Below, piece by piece: positions 37,818 to 40,033 of a DNA stretch of 64,000 bases. Within the stretch, counting starts at the first letter, position 1. Each line of letters begins with the position of its first letter. Origin of the DNA: Monosiga brevicollis MX1. Lineage: Eukaryota > Opisthokonta > Choanoflagellata > Craspedida > Salpingoecidae. The translations under genes and the position numbers were made by a program. The DNA is taken from assembly GCF_000002865.3 (NCBI RefSeq), contig NW_001865039.1:1385043-1449042 (forward strand), given 5' to 3'. Under the pieces are notes generated by a model. That model was not told the DNA's origin. It ran no database searches and was given only the letters and a program-made list of their open reading frames with translations.

Positions 37818-40033
37818 ATGGCGCGGCCACCAGCGACGGGATGGTGGGCAGCTTGCGATCGCACGCTCACGCGTGTGGCAAGCTGGCTGCCGGTGGGGTT
37901 TGTGCTGGCCATGTGGGTTTGGAGCTACTATGTCTACGTGGTCCGGCTGTGTGCGCAGGCCATCAGCACGCCGTTCTTGGCCGTCGTGTACGGGCTGCTC
38001 TACCATGTGCTATCGGCCATGCTGTTGTGGAGCTATCTGCGCGCATTCGGTACCCCAGCCAGTGAGATACCTCCAGAGGTACGCTCGTTCACCGGTGCTC
38101 AAATCTTGCTCGACATGAAGGCTAAAGCCAGCGGCGAGTTTGTCCTCACGCGCGACGCATTTGCCATTTGGGTGCAATGCCATAGTTTGACCTGACCGAT
38201 GATGAACTTGAGGCCTTGGCTGATGTGCGTTGGCTTGACCGACCGCCACAACACTTTGCTCCGGCCCCAGCGTGCTTTCTTGATGTGGTGTTGTATCTAA
38301 TGAAGGATTGTCGCCCCGGCCCACGTGAATGTGTGATAGGGTCGCGTGCCGGAGTCATTGCGCACACGTCGCTTGCCCATTTTGACCCACGATGGTGTCG
38401 GACGTATGTTGCTATCAAGGGGAAAACCAGACCCCTCATGAGCATACCCTGTCAGCGTGTGGCCGTTGAGCATTGCAACATTGTATTGTCATGCCGTGCA
38501 TGCATCTGCCAATAGGGCTCCGATGGTGCCGGCAGTGTCGCATCATCAAGCCGGATCGCTGCAAGCACTGCTCGCTTTGCCGTCGGTGCATTCTCAAGTT
38601 TGACCACCACGTGCGTTCCGGTTCGATGCATGCGCACCATGGCACGAAGCCCTGCACTCACTTGCGCTCGCTGTGTACTGCCTTCATGCATCCATGTGAC
38701 GGGGCCACAAATCATGCAGTGTCCGTGTACGTCATTGTGCCCGCCTGATGTATTGGGAATCTTTCGGAGCTGCCCTGTGGCAGCGGCCACCATATGCTGC
38801 GCCTGTAAGATGCCGTTCCTCACCCAGGCTCATGCGCGCGTGTGTGCCCTGCCTGCCACAGGGGTTGGCAACTGCGTTGGGCACCACAACTACAAGTATT
38901 TCTTCCTTTTCCTGTGCTACGCAACCGTTTTCTTGGTTTACGTGGCTGCCACAACTGCACGTTATGCATTGGCTATTGCCCAGGTACTGGCGCTTGCCGA
39001 CCCGCCCTGCTCCTCCAGTGGAAGCAGTGAGACACTGTCAGCAACTGGTTCACAACGGCATGTGATTTTAAATAGGGAACATTGGATGCAAGCATCCAAA
39101 TCGGCTTTGTCTGCTTGACGGCTTCTTTGTTCACACTGAGCGTCGGTGGCCTTTTAGCCCTCCATATCTCCCTCTTGCGCGCCAATCGGACCACCATCGG
39201 TTGGTCCTCCCCATGCTTGCCATGCAAGGATCGACACTTTGATGTTAGCTCTGGACGTTAGCCCTGACCACGGACATGCTTTTGATAGAGTCTGCACGAG
39301 GCCCTCCCATGGTGGCGAAGGCGCGGCGGCGCGGGTTTGACCGCGGCTCGCCGCGACGCAACATTGAAACTGTGTGCGGGCCAACCGTCTTTTGGTGGTT
39401 CTTTCCCGTTCTTAGCAGGTACCATCATTTGTGCTGCTACTAGGCTCTCTGTTGAATATTTACATGTTAGTTCAACCGACCTGTACTCAGCTGATACCCC
39501 TTCGTGGTGGCATGGCAGCATGGAGGACGGCGTGGTTCATCCCGTAGACTTCAACGAAGAGAGTTTGTGGGTCAATATTTGGCAGGTATGGCTCAGACAA
39601 GGCTCAGACAAGGCTCAGCATGACATGCGGATACACGCTATCAGAGCGCAAAAGCATAGTCAGAGTTGTTTTCGATTGATGCAAGCAAAGTTCTGTTCCG
39701 CCAAACCAGGTGAATGTGTTAGTCTCACTGGAGTATGCATGCCATGGGTGCACATAGGTGCCACATGCAGGACGTCCAGGGCACGAAACGCCGGAGACGG
39801 AGGACTCTGACGAAGATGCACCAACGCCGGCAGCGGGTGGCCGCCACCAAACCGTTGTGGACGTGGACGAGGGAAACAACGACCGCGCGGCGGTCGAGGA
39901 GACAAGCTGGCCCATGCTGGAGCCCAGTCCAAAGCAAAGGCAGGAGGTAGAGGACGACGATGACGAGGAATATTTGGACAATGATACACAGGCTGAGAGC
40001 GCCCCCATGCTGGGACCGCAAGATCTGCTCTGA
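37818..40033 (+). CDS. DHHC-CRD protein S-palmitoyltransferase (ZDHHC2/15/20-like)
   Basis: Exon 1 (37818-38078) starts [14 protein letters not shown] and codes two membrane helices ([19 protein letters not shown] and [19 protein letters not shown]). The Cys-rich domain follows: [20 protein letters not shown], then [10 protein letters not shown] at 38581-38610. The catalytic Cys-Pro-Trp is supplied by a 7-nt exon (38720-38726) spliced to 38862-38983, which gives [18 protein letters not shown] and the third helix. The next exon has the fourth helix ([17 protein letters not shown]) and the TTxE motif, reconstituted as NRTTIES across an intron. [12 protein letters not shown] follows, resembling the conserved N-x-x-x-V-F-G block. 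The tail is highly acidic ([14 protein letters not shown]) and ends PMLGPQDLL at 40033. It should transfer palmitate to protein cysteines at Golgi or plasma membrane. Exons between 38150 and 38520 are not fully resolved. Confidence 0.9.

Follow-up and report, generated by a model that had tools for sequence, protein, structure and literature searches.

A seven-nucleotide exon very probably supplies the catalytic cysteine of a putative DHHC palmitoyltransferase gene in Monosiga brevicollis

Exons as small as a single nucleotide exist (passages of PMC4674806), and an exon of a few nucleotides can carry part of an active site. In the plant invertases and fructan exohydrolases a 9-nt mini-exon, which encodes DPN of the NDPNG motif, contributes to the catalytic motif and specifies an active-site residue within it, and a chicory allele that lacks this mini-exon is described as putatively non-functional (both in passages of PMC8831610 and PMC4477480). 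The single-nucleotide exon of Arabidopsis APC11 is constitutive, is not a multiple of three and is needed for the reading frame, according to passages of PMC4674806. The cassette micro-exons of animal neurons are likewise very short exons lying between ordinary splice sites. We describe here a comparable case in a window of Monosiga brevicollis MX1 DNA, by which we mean the whole stretch of 64,000 nt analysed (contig NW_001865039.1). In this window, two introns 7 nt apart interrupt the active-site motif of a DHHC gene, and the seven-nucleotide exon between them very probably supplies the catalytic Cys, most likely as a constitutive exon.

A preliminary description of the locus had placed the micro-exon TGTCCGT at 38720-38726, bordered by CAG before and GTACGT after, between a donor at 38611 (GTGCGT) directly behind FDHH, which ends at 38610, and an acceptor at 38861, with the next exon starting at 38862 as GG GTT GGC. 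Re-reading the letters bore out all of these positions, as well as the lengths of the flanking introns (109 and 135 nt), their phases (0 in, 1 out) and the single occurrence of Cys-Pro-T in the intervening 251 nt. The claim that joining the exons gives DHHCPWVGNC also held, without a gap relative to human DHHC20 across the motif. The local context reads ...TTT GAC CAC CAC/GTGCGT at 38610/38611, ...ATCATGCAG/TGTCCGT/GTACGT around 38720-38726 and ...GCCACAG/GG GTT GGC at 38862, and the junction sequence expected from the micro-exon model is CACTGTCCGTGGGTT. With a limit of 15 nt or less between AG and GT for such an internal exon, the present one measures 7 nt (CAG/TGTCCGT/GTACGT). The sequence and the splice sites are observed directly, and the features of the gene are as follows:

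37818..38078, plus strand: probable first coding exon; open frame from ATG to a GAG/GTACGC donor, product ending in ...IPPE
38516..38610, plus strand: cysteine-rich-domain exon; Pfam DHHC match at G000:C56:1423560-1423652
38611..38719, plus strand: intron 1 of the pair; 109 nt, GTGCGT...ATGCAG, phase 0; donor 7.4, acceptor 3.4
38720..38726, plus strand: micro-exon TGTCCGT; 7 nt, encoding Cys, Pro and the first base of Trp
38727..38861, plus strand: intron 2 of the pair; 135 nt, GTACGT...CACAG, phase 1; donor 4.1, acceptor 3.4
38805..38861, plus strand: possible alternative second intron; 57 nt, GTAAGA donor 8.0, the best in the region; product 98.5 versus 128 bits
38862..38983, plus strand: exon after the micro-exon, (W)...ALAIAQ; Pfam DHHC match, donor GTACTG
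39076..39199, plus strand: exon carrying the start of the TTxE motif and ending in a split (E); aligned to DHHC20
39289..39418, plus strand: exon starting in the split (E); aligned to DHHC20, donor GTACCA

Judged from its sequence, the window gene appears to encode a functional palmitoyltransferase resembling DHHC20. The spliced product of the micro-exon model scores 128 bits against Pfam DHHC (PF01529), for which the cut-off is 28.7, and contains both DHHCPW in the Cys-rich domain and RTTIE, an instance of the TTxE motif of DHHC palmitoyltransferases. This motif spans two exons, 39076..39199 and 39289..39418, which extend the domain downstream. A search of the PDB with the same product matched eight distinct sequences, the best being human DHHC20 (6bml; E 1.2e-37 over 158 residues), to which the alignment is gap-free through FDHHCPWVGNCVG and includes RTTIE. 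The five highest-ranking of the eight comprise four entries for DHHC20 plus 6bms, which carries the name Palmitoyltransferase. By these best matches the gene may belong to the ZDHHC2/15/20 group. The outer parts of the model are less firm: the hydrophobic stretches of exon 37818..38078 were taken as TM1-TM2 by reading, without a family match, and the donors at 38984 (GTACTG) and 39419 (GTACCA) both lack the G at +5 present in 17/17 reference donors, which makes the 3' ends of 38862..38983 and 39289..39418 less sure. Between the first and the cysteine-rich-domain exons, a stretch from about 38186 looks coding; no phase-matched join from it to 38516 was found within 38079-38515.

To score splice sites we used a matrix built from 17 introns of this genome, namely 11 of the Unc18 gene, fixed by the sequence of a solved protein, and 6 of DHHC paralogues, fixed by homology; these introns measure 74-189 nt (n=17), the 11 from Unc18 being 78-189 nt. 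The Unc18 exons were spliced by eye with the human protein for a guide, and removal of the 11 introns reproduced 484/484 residues of PDB 2xhe_A, the UNC18 protein of Monosiga brevicollis. The agreement identifies the genome as that of M. brevicollis, so that a choanoflagellate origin is well supported, and it also gives manual splicing a positive control. G is present at +5 in 17/17 reference donors and in both donors of the pair. The donors 38611 and 38727 score 7.4 and 4.1 in a left-one-out reference range of 2.8-8.1, and the acceptors 38719 and 38861 score 3.4 each in a range of -3.1 to 8.2. The sites of the pair thus fall within the range of the 17 references, though they are not the strongest nearby. 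The micro-exon donor 38727 is middling, standing above 3/17 left-one-out reference donors, and is outscored by 4 of the 31 GTs in 38560-38989 (38805 at 8.0, the first intron's own 38611 at 7.4, 38621 at 7.0 and 38598 at 6.4), while the acceptors 38783 (3.2) and 38827 (3.1) are about equal to 38861 (3.4). Since nearby donors score higher and nearby acceptors equally well, it is homology, and not site strength alone, that picks out the micro-exon. The introns that would compete with the pair have unusual lengths: that from 38805 to 38861 is 57 nt and the one produced by skipping is 251 nt, both outside the 74-189 nt of the references.

How readily could such an exon appear by chance? The pattern AG-TGY-CCN-T-GT occurred in 60/50,000 dinucleotide shuffles of the 251 nt, and in 8/50,000 when the fuller GTNNGT donor was demanded. 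When any exon of at most 30 nt that restores Cys was admitted, 7,068/50,000 shuffles contained one; hence the evidence lies in the exact C-P-W and not in the Cys alone. The 64-kb window holds one further match to the short pattern (26783, plus strand) and none to its GTNNGT form; with one mismatch allowed there are 2 matches in the window versus 0.37 expected. Across the genome (39.47 Mb in 57 contigs, both strands) AGTGYCCNTGTRNGT has 7 matches, 2 forward and 5 reverse, so that about 2e-5 would be expected per 251 nt. A reversed-pattern control gave 20 matches (14 forward, 6 reverse), and the pattern as such is therefore not enriched. Scanning 600 nt to either side for motifs places DHHC-domain sequence beside only one of the seven, that in the window; no DHHC motifs lie within 600 nt of the other 6.

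Between the flanking exons we enumerated 66 open-frame models with a single intron, for which GT or GC donors were allowed, and a further 250 with two introns, for which donors were limited to GT, the middle exon to 150 nt and the introns to about 40 nt or longer. DHHCPWVGNC is yielded by 1/316 of these, the micro-exon model, and no other single-intron or two-intron route to it exists among the remaining enumerated models; DHHC as such is contained in 11 open models, one with a single intron and ten with two. Pfam DHHC scores are 128 bits with the micro-exon, 106.7 with donor 38615, 105.4 with donor 38621, 98.5 with an 85-nt middle exon, 89.4 with intron 2 retained and 40.2 with the micro-exon skipped. 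It is very unlikely that only the intron 38611-38719 is removed, leaving 38720-38983 as one exon with 45 extra residues between CP and VG, so that the 135 nt would be coding sequence or an optionally retained intron. These 135 nt are a multiple of three without an in-frame stop, the retained version stays open, and a gene predictor working without homology could accept it; against this, the Pfam score drops from 128 to 89.4 bits with the match broken into two stretches, no insert is present at this point in the three alignments shown, all of them to DHHC20 entries, and taking out the 135 nt restores exactly the Trp. Less probable still is a middle exon of 85 nt (38720-38804) ending at the GTAAGA donor 38805, the region's best at 8.0, which would give DHHCP, 26 further residues between CP and W, and then WVGNC, all in frame: its second intron of 57 nt is below all 17 reference introns (74-189 nt), and its product has 98.5 bits versus 128. 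Finally, we find it barely credible that one longer intron, from 38615 or 38621 to 38861, yields DHHVRVGNC or DHHVRSGVGNC and thereby a catalytically dead relative. Both frames are open and score 106.7 and 105.4 bits, and donor 38621 scores 7.0; nevertheless Cys, Pro and Trp would all be lost, both products being without the Cys, a complete and bordered CPW between the exons would be a coincidence (the 60/50,000 shuffles above), donor 38615 scores -9.0, and the introns required, of 247 and 241 nt, are longer than any of the 17 references.

A different alternative accepts the micro-exon and makes it a regulated switch, in which inclusion, skipping or retention of intron 2 is chosen to set palmitoyltransferase activity. 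The preliminary description had gone some way towards this by calling inclusion an all-or-none control point, on the ground that skipping deletes the active-site Cys and shifts the frame. The premise is correct, as the skipped version loses the Cys and meets a stop at position 86 of the reconstructed piece, whereas the control point drawn from it is unsupported on three counts: 1) retention of intron 2 keeps both the Cys and the frame and adds 45 residues. 2) The higher-scoring donor at 38805 likewise keeps Cys and frame, adding 26 residues. 3) Removal of intron 1 alone already restores DHHCP. Since retention and the 38805 donor also stay in frame, several outcomes are possible and not two. 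We regard it as unlikely that the exon acts as such a switch, and equally so that active enzyme results from inclusion and truncated enzyme from skipping, with retention or the 38805 donor placing 45 or 26 extra residues right behind the catalytic Cys-Pro. The loss of Cys and frame on skipping and the in-frame inserts that the other two outcomes place beside the catalytic Cys speak for it; yet competing sites by themselves show no regulation, and 7 nt is not a multiple of three, as the lengths of many cassette micro-exons in animals are. The preservation of frame on skipping that would mark a regulated cassette micro-exon is absent here (7 nt, frameshift), and by our own estimate a stop-free 135-nt intron that is a multiple of three, at about 5%, is too common to argue for function on its own. 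If the switch were true, micro-exon-style control of an enzyme would predate animals and neurons.

The reading we prefer remains that of a micro-exon most likely included constitutively, whose presence in the mRNA we infer from the evidence above. Short introns favor recognition across the intron, and under this intron-definition model errors are expected to be retained introns, not skipped exons (passages of PMC2397502 and PMC6142364). The flanking introns (109 and 135 nt) both fall inside the 74-189 nt of the 17 references, so that intron definition could act on each of them separately and the length of the exon would matter little. Their removal would probably be stepwise, as 7 nt hardly leaves room for splice-site factors to bind on both sides together. 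If intron 1 went first, the intermediate would be in frame and stop-free, with DHHCP already present. In plants the intron before a micro-exon is detained more than the one after it, as reported in a passage of PMC8831610.

A family search of the genome recovered nine other DHHC-like loci, a lower bound, and their introns, as read from the sequence, bear on the origin of the pair. L009 (minus strand) has an intron exactly at DHH/C in phase 0, its next exon beginning CPF, and L005 (minus strand) has one at CP/W, likewise in phase 0 and a single nucleotide away from the second window intron; L008, L004, L007 and L002 each carry one intron elsewhere near the motif, and L001, L003 and L010 have none near it. 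A single intron near the motif is thus present in 6/9 of these loci and absent from 3/9, and in none of the nine examined do both flanking introns occur together. That two paralogues carry one or the other intron singly suggests that the two intron positions are separate and lie within 7 nt of each other by coincidence, and we infer that the arrangement probably arose when the gene acquired two introns, each at the kind of position where relatives in the family have a single one. The counterpart of each intron in a paralogue may reflect shared descent or repeated gain at similar sites. Choanoflagellate genes have many introns, with gains both in the ancestor shared with animals and after the split (passages of PMC5560861). 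The ten loci together have eight introns in about 13 codons versus the roughly 3 that the Unc18 density predicts (Poisson 0.01), a figure to which we give no weight as the stretch was chosen post hoc. Three of the paralogues, L009, L008 and L007 (all on minus strands), are divergent, by-eye splicing reading DHHCPFVDNDVG (with the Cys of NCVG replaced), DHHCNVVENCIG and DHHCGFLGTCINAFN, respectively.

In the CCT chaperonin genes, a rough by-eye count of profile coordinates over 15 pairs of exon matches showed no second micro-exon. These 15 pairs abut or overlap, and some lie in one open frame or contain stops, so that not each is a proven junction. The family also has four wider profile gaps (contigs C24, 69-140; C30, 114-172; C47, 83-99; and C42, plus strand, 176-309). 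The C47 gap belongs to a CCT-like gene (G000:C47 177184-178113) whose profile jumps from 83 to 99 between exon matches, representing either a missed short exon or a divergent stretch. A search of viral contigs for a relative found none. In the openly licensed literature we found no papers joining DHHC, microexon and palmitoyltransferase, which is weak evidence of absence; the available passages of two DHHC papers (PMC13247117 and PMC12316389) hold nothing bearing on a split active site, and those of PMC4739763 include methods text on micro-exon detection in a holozoan.

Annotation pipelines easily overlook exons of this kind, and the window enzyme could well be mis-modelled either without its catalytic Cys or with an insert. 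Monosiga brevicollis has no neurons. The case suggests that an exon of 7 nt is within reach of the short-intron spliceosome of a choanoflagellate and, in view of the two paralogues with one similar intron each, that micro-exons can arise from two nearby intron positions without regulation. Human DHHC20 shares with the window gene the same Cys-rich domain, CPWV and TTIE, and differs in that the active site of the Monosiga gene is split by introns. Animal neuronal cassette micro-exons differ from the present exon in being alternatively spliced and often multiples of three, and the Arabidopsis APC11 exon, at 1 nt, was demonstrated by cDNA and reporters, whereas the Monosiga micro-exon is a prediction (for both systems, passages of PMC4674806). 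The closest precedent is the 9-nt active-site mini-exon of the plant invertases, which belongs to another enzyme in another kingdom and whose loss keeps the frame, whereas loss of the 7 nt here does not. Tiny exons within catalytic motifs are already established in plants, and the DHHC gene of Monosiga is a well-supported fresh example of them and a modest surprise.
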